Shown piece after piece: positions 4,859 to 16,155 of a stretch of 29,903 nt of DNA. The stretch spans positions 1-29,903 of IMG/VR virus record IMGVR_UViG_3300046653_000021; one strand, given 5' to 3'. Every line of letters starts with the position of its first letter. The first letter of the stretch is position 1. Position numbers and translations under genes: made by a program. Origin of the DNA: a virus. The notes below the pieces were generated by a model. It was not told the origin of the DNA. It was given only the letters and a program-made list of their open reading frames with translations, and did no database searches.

Positions 4859-5995
4859 ATGAAACCCGCTACCATGGCGCCCATGGGCCGCAAACGCAAA
4901 TCCGCAGACACCGGGCTGGAGCCACGTGTGTACCAGCAGCACGGCGCGCTGTACTACGTGCATCGCGACGGCCGCTGGGAGCGCCTGGGCACCAACAAGG
5001 CCGAGGCCAACCAGAAGGCACGGCTCTACAACGATCCCGACGGCCAATTTGGCACCATGGTTTACTGGCTCGACATGTTCCTGGCCAACTGCCAGGCGCG
5101 CGTCACCGCCAAGACGCTGGCCCAGCGCACCTACGACGACTACTCGTTCGCCATCAAGGGCACCACGCCAAAGGGTAAAGACCCCAAGCCAGGCGCCCTG
5201 CGCGTCTTCTTCGCGCCGCCAATGACGCCGCTCGACGTCGATCCCGACAACGTTCAGGACTTCCTGGACACCAACGCCGAGCTGGGCAGACCGGTGCCGG
5301 CCAACCGAGAAAAAGCAGCGCTCAGCAGCTGCATCAGTTGGCTGATCCGCACTGGCAAAGTGCCAGGCCTCAAGATCAACCCGTGCATGCGCGCCAGCGG
5401 CATCAAGCGCAACCCGGAGAGCAAGCGCGATCGCTACGTCACGCATGACGAATACCGCGACGTGTGGGCCGTGGCGCCCGCCACGGTGCGCCTGATGATG
5501 GAGCTGACCTACCGCACCCTGCAGCGGCCCGAGAGCGACATCATCACCTGGACCACCGACATCCTGGTCAACGAAGACAAGGTGCAAAAGCTAAAGTTTC
5601 GCCAGGGCAAGACCGGCAAGGTGATGAAGATCGCCACCACGCCGGCGCTCGATGCTCTCATCACAAAAGGCTTGAGCGGTAACGTGGTGCCGCTGCGTCA
5701 GCACATCGTGCGCACGCGCAATGGAAAAGCCTACACCTACGACGGCCTGAGCGCCATGCTCAAACGCTGCATCGCCAAGGCCAACAAGATCAACGCGACA
5801 AAGGGCATCGCGCCCATGCCGTCATTTGGTTACCGCGACCTCAAGGGCAAGGGCGCCACGGACATGTGGCTGTCAGGCGTGCCCATCGAGCAGATCCAGC
5901 AGCTCTGCGGCCACGAGACCAAGGACACGACCGAGATCTACGTCAAGCAGCGCTGGCACGACACGATCCAAACCAACCAGGTGGTGATGGGATGA
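4859..5995 (+). CDS. int: Tyrosine-family phage integrase
   Basis: 378 residues. The C-terminal catalytic domain shows the box I arginine (R223 in T-L-Q-R-P-E-S-D-I), a beta-hairpin lysine (K251 in R-Q-G-K-T-G-K), the box II histidine (H352 in L-C-G-H-E) and the nucleophile Y361 (T-E-I-Y-V-K). The usual H-x-x-R motif is R326-D-L-K329 (F-G-Y-R-D-L-K-G-K-G-A-T-D), as in a phage subfamily with RDL/RDI at this place. An N-terminal arm-binding region (residues 10-60) with K-R-K and H-R-D-G-R-W and a core-binding helical domain (about 70-180) come first. The gene ends 140 bases before the tRNA-Asn attachment core, reading towards it. The start at 4859 has only a weak ribosome site; ATG 4874 or 4883 are alternatives. 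Confidence 0.92.
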   Translation: MKPATMAPMGRKRKSADTGLEPRVYQQHGALYYVHRDGRWERLGTNKAEANQKARLYNDPDGQFGTMVYWLDMFLANCQARVTAKTLAQRTYDDYSFAIKGTTPKGKDPKPGALRVFFAPPMTPLDVDPDNVQDFLDTNAELGRPVPANREKAALSSCISWLIRTGKVPGLKINPCMRASGIKRNPESKRDRYVTHDEYRDVWAVAPATVRLMMELTYRTLQRPESDIITWTTDILVNEDKVQKLKFRQGKTGKVMKIATTPALDALITKGLSGNVVPLRQHIVRTRNGKAYTYDGLSAMLKRCIAKANKINATKGIAPMPSFGYRDLKGKGATDMWLSGVPIEQIQQLCGHETKDTTEIYVKQRWHDTIQTNQVVMG

Positions 5996-8312: not shown

Positions 8313-8738
8313 TTACAGTCCCAGCTTTGCTTTTTCAGCCCGCCCCCACGCCCGGCATTCCTCTGCGTAGGCGTTGTAGGCCGTCATCTCGGTGCTTGGC
8401 GCCGTACGCAACAGCTTGAGTTCGTCGGCGGTGCTGTAGCGTTGCGCGATCGCATCCTGCACGCGCTGGTTGATCAGACGCACTTGCGGGCTGGCCAGTT
8501 TGATCGCCGCCAGCAGATCCGTGGCGAGGGGTGTAGTCAACGTTTCTATGGATGCTGCAATGGAACTCGGCTGATTTGTGGGGAGTGTGAAGCCATCGAA
8601 CACTGCCACCACCGTGCGGCCATCGGCCAGTGTGGCAACTTCCTGCCCGGCCTGTACTCCCTGGGGTGCATCAGGCAGGCGCAGTGTGTGCGTGGTGACT
8701 GCGTCGATAACTTTTCGGTAAGCGTGTAAAGAGGTCAT
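8313..8738 (-). CDS. Phage protein between DGR and lysis genes, unknown
   Basis: 141 residues from ATG 8736-8738; the start lies 68 bases inside the 3' end of the RT gene, in another frame. The N-terminal half is beta-rich (T-L-A-D-G-R-T-V-V-A-V-F-D-G-F) and the rest helical, with V-R-L-I-N-Q-R-V-Q-D-A-I-A-Q-R-Y and an E-E-C-R-A-W-G-R-A-E-K-A end. Small proteins with this ending often follow tail-fibre genes in related phages, so a tail-fibre assembly or fibre-associated role is possible, but nothing diagnostic is present. Confidence 0.55.
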   Translation of the reverse strand: MTSLHAYRKVIDAVTTHTLRLPDAPQGVQAGQEVATLADGRTVVAVFDGFTLPTNQPSSIAASIETLTTPLATDLLAAIKLASPQVRLINQRVQDAIAQRYSTADELKLLRTAPSTEMTAYNAYAEECRAWGRAEKAKLGL

Positions 8739-9690
8739 GATGTTTTTCTTTCAGGTGGGTTAAGAGCGGTTTGAGTGAGCAGGTGCGCTTGGCGTGTCCA
8801 AGTCGCGAAATAATGGATTCGAGACGGCCTTTACGGGCGTCTGCACGGATTTGACTGACGATGCGCGGGCGAACAAACCGACCGCGTGCCCAAGTGCGAA
8901 ATCCACAGAAGTTGGCGCCGCGCTTCACGGGGTGCAGGCTGAAGTGACTGATCTCCAGGCCCAGCAGCGCCAGGTGCGTGCGGATCTGCTGCAGCCACAC
9001 TAGGCCGGTAGCGCGATCGGGCGCCAGCATGATGCTGTCATCCATGTAGCGGCCGTAATCCTTGATCTTGAGCGTGCGCTTGCAGAATTGGTCTAGGCTG
9101 TTGAGGTAGACGTTGGCAAAGGTCTGGCTGAGCAGGTTCCCGATCGGAACGCCGGTGCGCTCTGGGCGCTGCGCAAATGCGTTCATCAGATCCAGCATGG
9201 CGCCGCACTTGATGATGCGGGCTAGCAGCACCTGCAACACATCCCGATCGATGCTGTAAAAGAACTTGCGCACATCTACATGCAATATCCAGTCGGTACG
9301 CGGTGCGCGACGGATAGCGGCCTGCAGCCAGTCGGCAGCGACGTGCGTTCCCTTGCCGATGCGGCAGGCGAAGTTGGTATTGATGTAGTGGGCTTCGAAG
9401 ATGGGATAGGCTACCGCGTAGACGGCGTGCTGCACCACCATGTCCCTGAAGGCGGGAGCCTCGATCAGGCGTGGCTTTCTTCCATCATTCACCCAGAACC
9501 TATTGCAAGGGTGTGGGCGATAGCTGCCGTCGCTCAGTTCCTGGTGCAATGCCGCCAGATTCGCGCCCGGGTTGCAGCCAAACTCGAAGCAGGCGCGATG
9601 ATTGCGCTTGTTCCGGCTGGCTGCGCGATAAGCGGAAAGCAATGCGTCCATGGTGCAAATGCGCGGGTACAGGTTGCCAATGCGTTTCAT
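8671..9690 (-). CDS. DGR reverse transcriptase
   Basis: 339 residues from ATG 9688-9690 behind AGGAG. Motif A is I-L-H-V-D-V-R-K-F-F-Y-S-I-D with catalytic D139. The motif G-V-P-I-G-N-L-L-S-Q (180-189) carries the Ser-Gln pair that marks DGR reverse transcriptases, where retrons and group II introns have other residues. The active site is Y-M-D-D (215-218). The length is normal for the family and there is no maturase or endonuclease domain. Arg/Lys-rich stretches at the C-terminus fit RNA binding. It follows the template repeat by 150 bases, and the order variable gene, avd, TR, RT is that of Bordetella phage BPP-1. With Avd it copies the TR RNA, misincorporating at adenines, to rewrite the VR. 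Confidence 0.95.
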   Translation of the reverse strand: MKRIGNLYPRICTMDALLSAYRAASRNKRNHRACFEFGCNPGANLAALHQELSDGSYRPHPCNRFWVNDGRKPRLIEAPAFRDMVVQHAVYAVAYPIFEAHYINTNFACRIGKGTHVAADWLQAAIRRAPRTDWILHVDVRKFFYSIDRDVLQVLLARIIKCGAMLDLMNAFAQRPERTGVPIGNLLSQTFANVYLNSLDQFCKRTLKIKDYGRYMDDSIMLAPDRATGLVWLQQIRTHLALLGLEISHFSLHPVKRGANFCGFRTWARGRFVRPRIVSQIRADARKGRLESIISRLGHAKRTCSLKPLLTHLKEKHHDLFTRLPKSYRRSHHAHTAPA

Positions 9691-9840
9691 GTCAAGGCTC
9701 CTGAACCAGTCTTCGCGTGAAGACCAACATGGGCCCCGGTCGCTACCAAAGGGCGCACAAGCAAAACATTTCGCCGCAAGGCACGACGGAGACTCCCTCT
9801 TTGCCGGTCAGCACACGCTGCATAAGGCGTATTTGGCACA
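9691..9840 (-). ncRNA. TR-RT spacer, likely part of the DGR template RNA
   Basis: 150 bases between the template repeat and the RT start, with no convincing gene. In studied DGRs the RNA used as template extends from the end of avd through TR into a spacer of this size, and the spacer is needed for priming and RT-Avd binding. Function here is inferred from equal position and length; I did not establish a fold. Confidence 0.5.
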
Positions 9841-9957
9841 GAGTCGGAGCGAAAGCCATAGTTGTTGTTCGAGTTAGCGCGAACGTTGTTCAAGTTCAGC
9901 GCCCAGACCCCGGCTATCGCGCCGTTGTTCCAGTTGCCACCCGAATTCACACAAAGC
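9841..9957 (-). repeat. DGR template repeat (TR)
   Basis: 117 bp that align without gaps to 10452-10568 (constant offset of 611). Read on the - strand, it contains ten AAC codons at positions where the variable protein differs. AAC is the codon that yields many residues but no stop when its adenines change. Of 26 adenines, 15 differ in the VR. It starts three bases after the avd stop and is not itself a gene, though the frame is open through it. Confidence 0.95.
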
Positions 9958-9960
9958 ATG

Positions 9961-10407
9961 TCAAGCCTCCACCGCATTCGCAGCATCGCTGCGAATTCCT
10001 GAACCCGTGGCCACCTGGCCACGGAATTCCAAATTCACCCAACCACCAATCATTCGCCCCAGCTCGTCTACCATGCGCAGGATGACCAGATGCCGGTGGT
10101 CTCCCGGATCTGATGCATCCTTGCGGCCGGCGTTGTAGCCAAACAGACCCAGCTCGTGGGCGAGGTTGAGCAGCATGCGAAGCTGCTCATGGCGAATATC
10201 CAGTTGGACCAAAGTCGTTTTCTTGTGATAGCGCTTCTGCGCCTCGGTCACCAGGTTGTAGACATCCACAAATGCCACTCGAATGCTCTGAGTCAGGCTG
10301 TATTTGTGGCAGTTGGGAAAGTGGGCCAGGTAGCCCTCCAACTGCACGGCAAATAGCACCAGCTTGCGATGCAGCGAGGCTTCGGCGTGGACGCTCTGTT
10401 TTTGCAT
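9961..10407 (-). CDS. avd: DGR accessory variability determinant (Avd)
   Basis: 148 residues from ATG 10405-10407, with no clear ribosome site. The protein is mostly helical: an N-terminal helix with L-H-R-K-L-V-L-F-A-V-Q-L-E-G-Y-L, a basic helix with V-T-E-A-Q-K-R-Y-H-K-K-T-T-L, a third with L-R-M-L-L-N-L-A-H-E-L-G-L, and a fourth ending V-D-E-L-G-R-M-I-G-G-W. The basic surfaces and four-helix outline match Avd, a pentameric barrel that binds the reverse transcriptase and template RNA. It lies between the variable gene and TR, and its stop is three bases from TR, so template RNA and avd mRNA probably share a transcript. An extra tail after the last helix (about 15 residues) is longer than usual. 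Confidence 0.88.
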   Translation of the reverse strand: MQKQSVHAEASLHRKLVLFAVQLEGYLAHFPNCHKYSLTQSIRVAFVDVYNLVTEAQKRYHKKTTLVQLDIRHEQLRMLLNLAHELGLFGYNAGRKDASDPGDHRHLVILRMVDELGRMIGGWVNLEFRGQVATGSGIRSDAANAVEA

Positions 10408-10441
10408 GGTGATAAGGGCCTAATCGCTACCGCTCAAGGCC

Positions 10442-11791
10442 TCAAAGATACGAGGCGGAGCGAAAGCCATCGCTGTAGCTCGAGCTAGCGCGAACGGCGC
10501 CCAAGTCCAGCGCCCAGACCCCGGCTAACGCGCCGCTGACCCAGCTGCCACCCGAATTCACACAAAGCTCATTCGGTCGAGCCCCGTCATACATGTAGTC
10601 GTTACCGAACTGGTTGGAGCCTCCCACACCGGCCAACAAAGGAATACCGGCACCAGTGACGCCCCAAGGGGTGCCGCTGGTGGCTTCGGACAAAACCTGT
10701 GCTGCTGAGCCGAAGGTCTTATTGGCGGCTGCAGCCGTCATGCATCCGTAGGTGGCGCCCAGGCTGGTGTACAGCGCGGCCAGGCCGGTGGCGCCCCAGG
10801 CGTCGGTGGCCAGGGTGTTGCCGCTGGTCATGGCGTTGACGTCTGCGGCGGTGTTAAGCAGATAGAAGTTGGTGCCGTTGCTCGTCAAGCCGAAGGGCTC
10901 AATACTCCACAGTGTGCCGTTCAAATCGGCGACGCCACAGTTTTGGCCGTTGTGCGTGGTCTTGCTGAAGAAGTTGGCGCTGCCCGTCTTGCTGCAGTTG
11001 GTGGCTGTGCCATCGTCCAGGAAGGCGATCGAGCCGTCGTTTGTGTCGCCTAAGGCGTTATTGTTACAGCCCTTTGGAAAATTCGTGCTGCCGGCCGAGT
11101 ACCAGGCGTTATAGGTGGTTCCCGTGCTCGCGCTGCCATGGGCGTTGGACAACAGCGCCAGTGCAGCGCGGATGAATCGGCTGGAGCAAAAGAACACGCT
11201 GCCGCGCGTCTTGGCGGCTGGGATAGCGCCATAGAACGCATTGGCAGGGGCGCCCGTCAATGTGGCGAAGGCGGTGGATGCCACGGCGCCGCGTTGCGCG
11301 CTAGCCAGGGGCACGCCGTTCTTCAGTGAGCTGGCGGTGCCGTTGTTGTTGCTGCACATGTACTTGTCGACAAACACGCCGGGGCGGATGGTGCCGCCGT
11401 TGTAGAACGCGCGGTGCAGCGCGTAGCCTGCTGCATTGGCTGTCGCGACGTCTGCAAAGTAGCTGAAGGCCTTGACATCCACCACGTTCAGGGCAAAGCC
11501 GTTGGCGCCTGTGCCGTATTTGTAATAGAACGCCGGCATGTAGACCATGATCGATCCGTCGGTGTATTGATAGTTTCCATAGGTGTCGCTGGCCGGGTCA
11601 TTGGTGCCGTAGAGCGCGGCGAATCCGCTGGGGATGCTGGGCGCAATGCCCACGCCAAAACCCTGCTGGCCAGGGGTTCCGATGTTGTTGACCAGGCCGG
11701 CGCCGGTGGCTGTGCCGATGCGGATGCCTCCAGGGAAGGAGACGGGCGAGCCGTCGGGAGTTTGGATGTTGCGGGTGACAAGGGTGCTCAT
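10442..11791 (-). CDS. DGR variable protein, probable tail-tip receptor-binding protein
   Basis: 449 residues from ATG 11789-11791 (AAGGAA upstream). The C-terminal third has the C-type-lectin / FGE-sulfatase-like outline usual for DGR targets, with G-N-D-Y-M-Y-D-G-A-R, then N-E-L-C-V-N-S-G-G-S-W, then A-G-V-W-A-L. Residues 409-447 are encoded by the VR. Relative to the template, residues 416, 418, 419, 422, 429, 431, 432, 436, 438, 439, 440, 441 and 446 differ; ten of these are Asn in the template version. The N-terminal two thirds are Gly/Asn/Thr/Ala-rich and beta-like. It follows a fibre gene by 22 bases. By analogy with Mtd of BPP-1, it would sit at the tail tip and bind host receptors. 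Confidence 0.9.
   Translation of the reverse strand: MSTLVTRNIQTPDGSPVSFPGGIRIGTATGAGLVNNIGTPGQQGFGVGIAPSIPSGFAALYGTNDPASDTYGNYQYTDGSIMVYMPAFYYKYGTGANGFALNVVDVKAFSYFADVATANAAGYALHRAFYNGGTIRPGVFVDKYMCSNNNGTASSLKNGVPLASAQRGAVASTAFATLTGAPANAFYGAIPAAKTRGSVFFCSSRFIRAALALLSNAHGSASTGTTYNAWYSAGSTNFPKGCNNNALGDTNDGSIAFLDDGTATNCSKTGSANFFSKTTHNGQNCGVADLNGTLWSIEPFGLTSNGTNFYLLNTAADVNAMTSGNTLATDAWGATGLAALYTSLGATYGCMTAAAANKTFGSAAQVLSEATSGTPWGVTGAGIPLLAGVGGSNQFGNDYMYDGARPNELCVNSGGSWVSGALAGVWALDLGAVRASSSYSDGFRSASYL
10452..10568 (-). repeat. DGR variable region (VR) with IMH at its 3' end
   Basis: The last 117 bp of homology to TR lie inside the variable gene, ending seven bases before its stop codon. There are 16 differences from TR: ten A to G, three A to T, two A to C, and one T to G (template base to VR base, coding strand). 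The T to G lies about 20 bases from the 3' end (10471), in the region expected to act as the initiation of mutagenic homing site. I see no convincing cruciform hairpin just downstream of the VR, unlike BPP-1. Confidence 0.95.
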
Positions 11792-13168: not shown

Positions 13169-16155
13169 ACCACCGTCCTTACGCTCAGGGCATCACCCAG
13201 CGGCACGATGCGGTCCAGGGTTCGATTAGTTTTGGCGGTGTTCGCCACGTTCTGTTCAAAGGCGCGCCGCAGCAGCCGCATCTCCACCAGCAGCTCGGTG
13301 TTGTCTGCACCGCCCGAGCGCAGCATGCTGGCGGTTTGGTCGGCATTGAAGATGCGCGACGGGCCGGTGACTTCGATCTCGGGGCCGTTCTCGCCAACCA
13401 AGCGGATACCACCGCCCCAGTCGCCGCCCGTGGCCATTCCGGAGATTGAGCTGCGGTCGTTTTCAAAGTTGGGGTATTGCTGCGTCACCGCAGCCAGGGC
13501 TGCCTGGGCTTTCACGTCTTCCAGCGAGGATGGGTCTGACAGAACAATGATGTCCATCGGATTCCCGTCCACCAAGAGACTCGCTTCTTCAATGTGACCA
13601 TTGAAATACTCGGTGTAATCAAACTCCACCGCGCGCTTGGCCACACCCATCTTGGCGGCCTCGGCCAGATACATTTGCTCCACCTCGCTGGGTACGCCTT
13701 TGTGCACCAGCGTGCCGCCCATACCACCGCTCTTGACCGAACCATCTGGACCGAATGTGGATTTTTCCTCGCCATGCGGTTTGTAGTCGCTGCCGCCGTT
13801 GAGCGAGAACAGCGCCGAGATGCCGAGCGCCACCCAGCCCAGCGGACCAGCCGATATCCCTGCAGCAATCTCTGAGCCGCCCACCGATGCGCCCTCTGCC
13901 ACCGCGCCGTAGCCCGCATCCATCGCAGCGGCGCTGCCCATCGTCATGCCGGTTTCCGCGCCCGCGCCGGCCAACGTCCCTGCACCGACGCTCGTAGCGC
14001 CCGCTGCAGCCGCCGTGCCGTACGCACCATTTGTAGCCAGCAGCCCATCGATACCGCCACCGGCATAACCAGCATTGGCGGCAATGCTGCCCGCGCCGTT
14101 GGCCAGTGACATCGAGCCGGTGGCCATCGATCCCAGGGCGCTGGCGCCTGACATGAGCGAACTGCCCATGGAAGATGCACCTGCCATCCCCCCAGCGCCA
14201 GATGAGCCACTGCCGCCACCTGTGATCCCCAGGGCGCCGTTGACCATGCCGGTGAGAGCATTGGACACGGGCGACATGATTGCCTGGATGGTGGGCGTGA
14301 GCACCATTTGCTCGAACATCTTGATGAGGTAATCGCGGAACGCCACGAAGATGCTCTTGCCGCTTTCAACCGCGCCTAAAAATGCCTGAGTCAGGCCTGC
14401 GCCGATCTGATCAGACGTTTTTTTCCACTCGGCTGCTGTGTCTTTTGCGTTTTGCAAGATAGCGCCGCGACTCGCCTCGGCTTCGGCGCCACGATACGCG
14501 GCCGCCAGATTTTTTTGTGCGTCTATGAGGTCTTGGCTCAACCCAGCCTCTTCGAGCATCTGTGCCTGATGGTCGGCGGCGACGGCCATTTCTTCGAGCC
14601 GCGCAATCTTGATCTCTACGATCTGTTCCTTGGTCAGGAACATCATGTCGTTGTTGTCGCGTGTCTTGCTGGTTTCGTCGTTCAGCTTGTCGATCTTGGT
14701 CTGGATCGCCACGGCGGATTTGTAGTTCTCGTCCGTGTCCTGCTTTTGCTCTTCGATCTGTCTTGTCAACGCGTCGTTTTCGGCGATGCGAGCACGGGTC
14801 GCGGCCTCCATGGTGGCCGTGAGGGTGATCTTGCCGCTGGCAAGGTCTTGCGTGAGCTTCAGGTCTTCCTGCTGAGCGAGTGTCAGCTTGTAGCCATAGT
14901 CGAGCTCAGCCTGCAATTTTTCAGTGATGTTCTCGATAGAGACGGCATAGTCCAAACCCGCCTTGGCGGCCTGGTCGGCAACTTCCTTGGCTTTTGCCAT
15001 CGACTCAGAGTGGTAATCGAGCTGCGCTCTATCATCCCCAACCGCAACACCCACCGCCTGCACGTTGGCGATGCGGTCGCGCAGTTGCTGCCCCAAGGTG
15101 CTTTCGCCCCAGGTCTTGTCGAGCGTGGCGTGGAAGTCCTCGGTCATCTGCTGCTGAGCTATCGTCGTGGTACGGTAGGTTTCAGCCGCGCCTGCAAAAT
15201 CACCATGGATGACTTTGTTGATGACGGTGGAGATTCCGTCGAACTGCAGCATGGCGGACGCCGCCATAAAGCCGATGCTCGACCCCACGGTAATGATCAC
15301 ATCCTTCAGGCCGCTGAACGCGTCCATCACATAGGTGGCGCCTACGATGGCCGTGCGCGTCCAGTCGGCAATGGAGCCGTCGGCAGAGAGCTTTTTTATC
15401 TCTTCACGCAGCCCACCGGTATCGTTGACCATGCCCAGCGTGGCGGTCGCGGCTTCCTGCAGCGCAGGCAGCATGCCCAGCGACAATTCCTTCTTCCAGG
15501 CGTCGCCGCTGGCCTGCAAGCGCTTCATATCCACCTCAAACTGGCGCGCTTGCGTGGCCTGTTCTTCTGTGACCTTGGCATGCAGTTCACCCACATCGGC
15601 CAGCTCTTGCAGGAACGGCAGCGCTTGCGCTCCCGACTTACCCAGCAGCGTCATGGCGACGGCGGATTTGTCAGACCCATCGGCAAACCCGTTCATGGCA
15701 CCGGCCAACGTCACCAATTTTTCGTCGGGCGACAGGGCGTTGAAGTCGTTGAAATTCAGCCCAAGTGCGGCGATCGCTTGGCCCGTGCCCTTGCTCTCTT
15801 CGTTGGCCACGGCCATGTTCTTGGCCAGCTTGTTCATCATTCCGGCGATCTCGTCGCCGGTGGTGCCGGTCAACTTGCCCACCGACACCAAGGCAGAAAA
15901 CTGCTCTACCGAAGCGCCCGTCTGAATCGACAAGTCGTGCAGCGCGGCCACACCGTGCAGCGCGCCTTCCACCATGCCGCGAAACGCCTCAATCGAGGCG
16001 ATACCGGTCAGGCCGATAAACGCGGCCTTTGCAAGACCCACGGCCTCCTCGATCGCAGCCATCGACGTGCCCACCGCAGACTTGGCGTCGTCCATGTCGC
16101 GCTTGAGCTGCGCCATGTCGGCCATCATCTGGATCTCAAGGGTTCCGATGTTCAT
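13165..16155 (-). CDS. Tail tape measure protein
   Basis: 996 residues from ATG 16153-16155, with TAAGGA upstream. It is the longest gene and follows the tail chaperones, as tape measures do. The N-terminus is a charged coiled coil (L-E-I-Q-M-M-A-D-M-A-Q-L-K-R-D-M-D), followed by Ala/Gly-rich hydrophobic helices, long coiled coils (about 380-580), a Gly/Ser/Ala/Met-rich low-complexity part (about 650-780) and a compact C-terminal domain. About 1,000 residues corresponds to a tail of roughly 150 nm by the usual length rule, consistent with a siphovirus. No lytic transglycosylase or peptidase motif is evident. Confidence 0.9.
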   Translation of the reverse strand: MNIGTLEIQMMADMAQLKRDMDDAKSAVGTSMAAIEEAVGLAKAAFIGLTGIASIEAFRGMVEGALHGVAALHDLSIQTGASVEQFSALVSVGKLTGTTGDEIAGMMNKLAKNMAVANEESKGTGQAIAALGLNFNDFNALSPDEKLVTLAGAMNGFADGSDKSAVAMTLLGKSGAQALPFLQELADVGELHAKVTEEQATQARQFEVDMKRLQASGDAWKKELSLGMLPALQEAATATLGMVNDTGGLREEIKKLSADGSIADWTRTAIVGATYVMDAFSGLKDVIITVGSSIGFMAASAMLQFDGISTVINKVIHGDFAGAAETYRTTTIAQQQMTEDFHATLDKTWGESTLGQQLRDRIANVQAVGVAVGDDRAQLDYHSESMAKAKEVADQAAKAGLDYAVSIENITEKLQAELDYGYKLTLAQQEDLKLTQDLASGKITLTATMEAATRARIAENDALTRQIEEQKQDTDENYKSAVAIQTKIDKLNDETSKTRDNNDMMFLTKEQIVEIKIARLEEMAVAADHQAQMLEEAGLSQDLIDAQKNLAAAYRGAEAEASRGAILQNAKDTAAEWKKTSDQIGAGLTQAFLGAVESGKSIFVAFRDYLIKMFEQMVLTPTIQAIMSPVSNALTGMVNGALGITGGGSGSSGAGGMAGASSMGSSLMSGASALGSMATGSMSLANGAGSIAANAGYAGGGIDGLLATNGAYGTAAAAGATSVGAGTLAGAGAETGMTMGSAAAMDAGYGAVAEGASVGGSEIAAGISAGPLGWVALGISALFSLNGGSDYKPHGEEKSTFGPDGSVKSGGMGGTLVHKGVPSEVEQMYLAEAAKMGVAKRAVEFDYTEYFNGHIEEASLLVDGNPMDIIVLSDPSSLEDVKAQAALAAVTQQYPNFENDRSSISGMATGGDWGGGIRLVGENGPEIEVTGPSRIFNADQTASMLRSGGADNTELLVEMRLLRRAFEQNVANTAKTNRTLDRIVPLGDALSVRTVV

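Follow-up and report, generated by a model that had tools for sequence, protein, structure and literature searches.

Some described diversity-generating retroelements (DGRs) have a fixed difference at the end of their variable repeat (VR) and template repeat (TR). This is the difference between the initiation of mutagenic homing site (IMH) and its counterpart in the TR (IMH*). Such differences are already known from BPP-1, T. denticola (PMC4891356), and nanoarchaea (PMC4372165). The BPP-1 DGR has the order mtd, avd, TR, and brt. Its IMH is 21 bp with 5 mismatches, and its hairpin has an uninterrupted 8-bp GC stem (PMC3240598). Information transfer starts inside its (GC)14 element (PMC3240598). 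Here we describe a DGR on the minus strand of IMG/VR record IMGVR_UViG_3300046653_000021. The window is the whole 29.9-kb virus record, which may be a fragment.

The DGR in the window belongs to an already known kind of system. It shares with BPP-1 the gene order, the reverse transcriptase (RT) family (40% identity; PDB 8ub7 group), Avd, and a TR directly after avd. In both, the VR lies at the 3' end of the target gene and contains a GC-rich tract identical to the TR. The IMH/IMH* mismatch follows, and then a hairpin with a GRNA loop between VR and avd. Unlike BPP-1, the window has a single fixed A/C base before homology ends, and its stem is broken by tandem G.A pairs. The DGR of Pseudomonas phage Bise is alike in its RT (46% identity), its GAC/GCC end, and its target-avd-TR-RT order, but its hairpin stem is 6 bp and perfectly paired. 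The DUSEL4 nanoarchaeal DGRs also retain adenines in the TR IMH* (TGGAAT versus TGGGGT in the IMH; PMC4372165). Their motif is different, their hairpin loop is GRA, and the hairpin is within the target gene (PMC4372165). The target of the Thermus aquaticus DGR, TaqVP, matches the predicted target fold (Z 29.1 over 296 residues), but identity across aligned residues is 21%, and the target here is a phage tail-region gene.

Our reading has two parts. The A/C pair at 10455/9844 is the IMH/IMH* distinction of this DGR clade, and the T>G change at 10471 is a rare RT miscopy in the conversion tract. We assign this reading a probability of about 0.8. All statements on mechanism are based on sequence comparison.

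TR and VR form a gapless repeat of 117 nt at an offset of 611, with 101/117 positions identical. The minus strand is the coding strand of the target, avd, and RT. On it, the 16 TR-to-VR differences comprise ten A>G, three A>T, two A>C, and a single T>G. They fall on 15 of the 26 template adenines and on 1 of the 91 remaining positions (Fisher P = 3.5e-11). The initial annotation had reported this alignment, offset, and set of change counts, which were reproduced exactly, and its assignment of the repeats to a DGR is borne out. It gave no strand; on the plus strand, the same changes appear as T>N and A>C. Its estimate of about 14 truly mutated adenines agrees with the 14 of 25 adenines that differ upstream of the A/C site. 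The T>G (9860/10471) sits 20 nt from the 3' end of the repeat, and the A>C (9844/10455) sits 4 nt from it. The identical TR and VR, T>G included, were present in a second assembly (IMGVR_UViG_3300046485_000090), which has 3 differences over 1.9 to 14.5 kb. The T>G is therefore not a lone base-calling error. This contig (L013) was rejected as an informative relative, as it comes from the same phage population with an identical VR and shows reproducibility only.

Several hundred loci encoding RT relatives were gathered (L-numbers), and TR/VR pairs were found by script. To be called, a pair had to have 75% or more of its differences at adenines; all non-adenine changes were penalised alike. The IMH test used a 3'-end alignment of 103 unique pairs and an enlarged set of the window's RT clade (n = 136). 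The TR has GAC and the VR has GCC in 101/103 unique pairs and in 132/136 pairs of the enlarged clade; A/C 9844/10455 is therefore a fixed difference. The initial annotation had placed the IMH/IMH* zone at the 3' end of the repeats and had allowed that this A>C might be fixed. Both points stand. Four pairs of the enlarged clade fall outside GAC/GCC: in L150 an indel displaces the same change, L175 and L179 show A>G instead, and L132 alone lacks it. The chance of 101 consecutive A>C changes is ~2e-91, assuming an ordinary mutable adenine and independent pairs.

The VR C could instead be maintained only through protein selection for Ala446, which is near invariant in 40 targets. Such selection would not be expected to keep GCC in practically every VR without synonymous change (a third-base test that is partly circular, since pairs were selected by GAC/GCC, with the four unmatched pairs inspected by eye). 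Nor would it be expected to give an invariant A in the TR. The TR copy of this base is non-coding, so selection on the target protein cannot fix it. We consider protein selection alone unlikely. By analogy with BPP-1, the A/C base probably determines homing direction (target versus template).

A 13-base tract lies at -14 to -2 before the A/C base. Across 101 pairs it contained 2 adenines in 1313 positions, and its G+C content was 75%. The tract varies among lineages, yet TR and VR differ within pairs at only 4/1313 positions. The T/G site is column -16. It is upstream of the adenine-poor tract and inside the overwritten tract.

The initial annotation had taken the T/G at 9860/10471 as the exception that marks the IMH, a fixed difference constant in related phages. 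The column is not constant. Of 101 TRs, 8 have T there, 55 have G, and 38 have a mutable A, which is mutated in the VR in 28 cases. As TR/VR pairs, relatives have T/T, G/G, or A/N; T>G is confined to this phage population. The TRs of L006, L023, and L024 have the codon TAT, in which the T is kept in the VR and the A just 3' of it is mutated. The constant difference is instead 16 bases closer to the 3' end. A T/G IMH can therefore be set aside as extremely improbable. The nearest template, L021, also has TAT, with T in both TR and VR, so the VR G at 10471 is the derived base.

The T>G at 10471 may also be an ordinary VR point mutation after the last homing, possibly selected (Tyr to Asp, residue 441). 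Single events of every kind happen, and L031 and L032 share an adenine pattern but differ by one VR T>G. As an individual case, 10471 is not separable from a point mutation of this kind. A VR with this base composition would carry one or more T>G changes with a probability of 28%. The excess across DGRs is T>G-specific, independent of codon position, directional (61 versus 7 G>T), and unlike the flanks, which makes a point mutation the doubtful alternative and an RT miscopy the preferred one.

This excess was seen across three RT clades, whose 265 non-redundant VRs were pooled after removal of 8 nt from the 5' end and 12 nt from the 3' end. Of the pool's 118 changes at bases other than adenine, 61 were T>G, 11 C>T, 9 each G>C, T>C, and G>A, 7 each C>G and G>T, 3 C>A, and 2 T>A. 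Detection penalised non-adenine changes alike, so it is not the source of the bias toward T>G rather than T>C or G>T. T>G was present at 1.3% of T sites (1.3, 1.5, and 1.0% at codon positions 1, 2, and 3). The TR base is conserved among related templates in 42/46 polarisable cases. T>G was found in 26/118 TR clusters, and with one VR per cluster there were 21 T>G versus 4 T>C and 4 G>T. The flanks of near-identical loci, outside TR and VR, gave an ordinary spectrum (G/T 947, C/T 3355). G/T made up 22% of G/T plus C/T differences there versus 87% in the TR/VR set (Fisher P 2e-30). A class-wise genome search added few DGRs; in the new ones (L375 onward), T>G accounts for 4 of roughly 10 non-adenine changes, which is consistent but small.

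Most loci are from metagenome assemblies, where dark-base G calls in two-colour chemistry might produce T>G as an artefact of sequencing or assembly. Such an artefact should hit TR and VR alike and give equal G/T and T/G counts, whereas 7 and 61 were seen. T>G is also present in genomes of isolates (Psychrobacter L111, L115, and L144). An artefact is very improbable as the source. Two other candidates were rejected. A mutated neighbouring adenine had no effect, as T before A changed in 4/192 sites with the A mutated versus 8/180 without. Template slippage re-using a 3' G was dropped, as T before G shows the lowest T>G rate. The mutated-adenine fraction was alike in VRs with T>G and in others (0.552 versus 0.554).

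The commonest adenine outcome is A>G (1810/3551), i.e., deoxycytidine (dC) insertion. Measurements in E. coli likewise showed BPP-1 bRT to misinsert mainly dC (PMC12875486). Non-adenine TR/VR changes as such are already known. T>G appears to be a second-order signature of DGR RTs, with the enzyme rather than repair or selection as its probable source. It is likely that proteobacterial/BPP-1-type RTs make a second, low-rate error, dC opposite template U, which over the whole set affects ~1.3% of template T sites.

Several points weigh against this reading. The direction role of the A/C base is taken from the BPP-1 analogy. By clade, T>G was found at 32/2414 T sites in the window's clade, 23/930 in the BPP-1 clade, and 6/1437 in the gut/Firmicutes-type clade, where it is weak though still the top T change. 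About seven BPP-1-clade events share one AACTCCG-like context, which leaves room for a contribution from hotspots, selection, or hidden template variants. T before G is spared (0.3%), perhaps in part through protein constraint on TGG codons. Yan et al. 2019 (PMC6642488) report T>C as the favoured change at T, in a set that is broader and less filtered. A literature search, with perhaps incomplete coverage of enzyme biochemistry, found no earlier report of T>G bias; the one survey found gives T>C.

The locus would work as follows. TR RNA would be copied to cDNA by the Avd-assisted RT, with errors at adenines. The cDNA would replace the VR from its 5' part as far as the GC-rich tract just before the IMH. 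In this clade the IMH/IMH* distinction would be a single base, C in the VR (10455) and A in the TR (9844). Being 3' of the conversion tract, this base would never be overwritten, and it is probably what distinguishes target and template. Lying within the conversion tract, the T>G at 10471 would most likely be a rare second-order miscopy by the same RT. dC put opposite template U would give T>G on the coding strand. Relatives such as L044-L049 have identical TRs and different VRs, which suggests that mutagenic retrohoming is active among them.

If the reading holds, IMH discrimination in a large proteobacterial DGR clade rests on one A/C base, which could be used for automatic orientation and calling of TRs and VRs. 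Non-adenine TR/VR mismatches would then be more than noise, as they have a directional T>G signature, which is a clue to enzyme mispairing and which TR/VR finders wrongly penalise. A dC-opposite-U error would mean that targets also gain diversity outside adenine sites, with a predictable direction of change.

Table 1. Features of the DGR locus in the window.
Feature	Position	Strand	Description
TR	9841..9957	-	Begins 3 nt past the avd stop codon; homologous TR likewise placed in L003-L147
VR	10452..10568	-	3' end of target gene; 14 mutated adenines, T>G, and fixed A>C
T>G exception	10471 (TR T9860)	-	Target residue 441 is Asp instead of Tyr
Probable IMH discriminator base	10455	-	C in VR (codon GCC, Ala446) versus A at TR 9844 (GAC)
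Probable IMH* base	9844	-	A, invariant in TR
Adenine-free GC-rich tract	9846..9858 (VR copy 10457-10469)	-	TR = VR; counterpart of BPP-1 (GC)14
Target gene	10442..11791	-	449-aa variable protein; predicted C-type-lectin-type DGR variable-protein fold
Homing hairpin/cruciform	10417..10441	-	GGCCTTGAGC-GGTA-GCGATTAGGCC; between target stop and avd start
avd accessory gene	9961..10407	-	Pfam bAvd 4e-13
Spacer between TR and RT	9691..9840	-	150 nt; putative counterpart, by position only, of BPP-1 Sp priming RNA site
DGR RT	8671..9690	-	339 aa; IGNLMSQ and YMDD motifs

The hairpin contains a GRNA loop (GGTA, 10428-10431), a 5-bp outer stem, tandem G.A pairs, and a 2-bp inner stem. Its DNA fold is -5.5 kcal/mol, with a z of -2.0. 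The pattern GA-NN-GRNA-NN-GA with a paired NN step (GC/GC, AC/GT, or GT/AC) was found in 90/136 clade loci, the window included. A further 28 of the 136 have a continuous Watson-Crick stem with a GRNA loop, as do 44/52 BPP-1-clade loci. The outer-stem arms form 4.07 contiguous pairs with their own partner versus 2.57 with arms from other loci (maximum of 1000 shuffles, 2.97). Known hairpin stems are GC-rich and 7 to 10 bp (Guo et al., PMC3240598). The tandem-G.A stem is a variant of that homing hairpin, its G.A pairing predicted from sequence. Across L003-L209, a GAGC-GRNA-GCGA core is conserved in most of the RT clade, and the outer stem and inner 2-bp step covary. A 5-bp GCCTC...GAGGC stem containing C10455 was rejected as a general feature; it is present only in a handful of relatives. 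An Rfam scan of the window matched zero families.

On the minus strand, the order is target with the VR at its 3' end, hairpin, avd, TR, spacer, and RT. The locus contains an adenine-biased TR/VR pair, an adjoining DGR-type RT, Avd, and a target with a predicted C-type-lectin fold. It also contains the fixed IMH/IMH* difference at the 3' end (A/C 9844/10455, and not the T/G at 9860/10471) and the GRNA-loop hairpin downstream of the VR. It is a complete BPP-1-type DGR (target, Avd, TR, and RT) in a probably temperate HK97-type phage. The RT matched RVT_1 (2e-13), PHROG 1423 (3e-90), the PDB 8ub7 group (2e-52), and BPP-1 Brt. The bAvd match of the avd product is over the Pfam cut-off. It also matched PHROG 3206 and, under the NCBIfam cut-off, NF033474 DivGenRetAVD (4e-16).

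The target has no Pfam family. Its AlphaFold2 model had a predicted local distance difference test score (pLDDT) of 85. The closest structural match was TaqVP (5vf4), followed by Mtd (Z about 12) and TvpA (2y3c; Z 11.5). The model predicts a C-type-lectin-type fold with the VR at the C-terminus. The DGR would rewrite the tip of a receptor-binding-type protein.

The window also encodes a portal, a large terminase, an HK97 protease and capsid, a tape measure, and a weak tyrosine-recombinase match. On these genes, it is a tailed phage fragment and probably temperate. The recombinase similarity is in a plus-strand open reading frame at 4859-5995; it is weak and suggests a temperate phage.

The second assembly is near-identical from 1.9 to 14.5 kb and then ~10% divergent in the tape-measure gene (14500-15981). 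This suggests recombination or strain mixing. Among the relatives, Psychrobacter assembly 72-O-c contained at least three related DGR RT loci (L115, L126, and L144).
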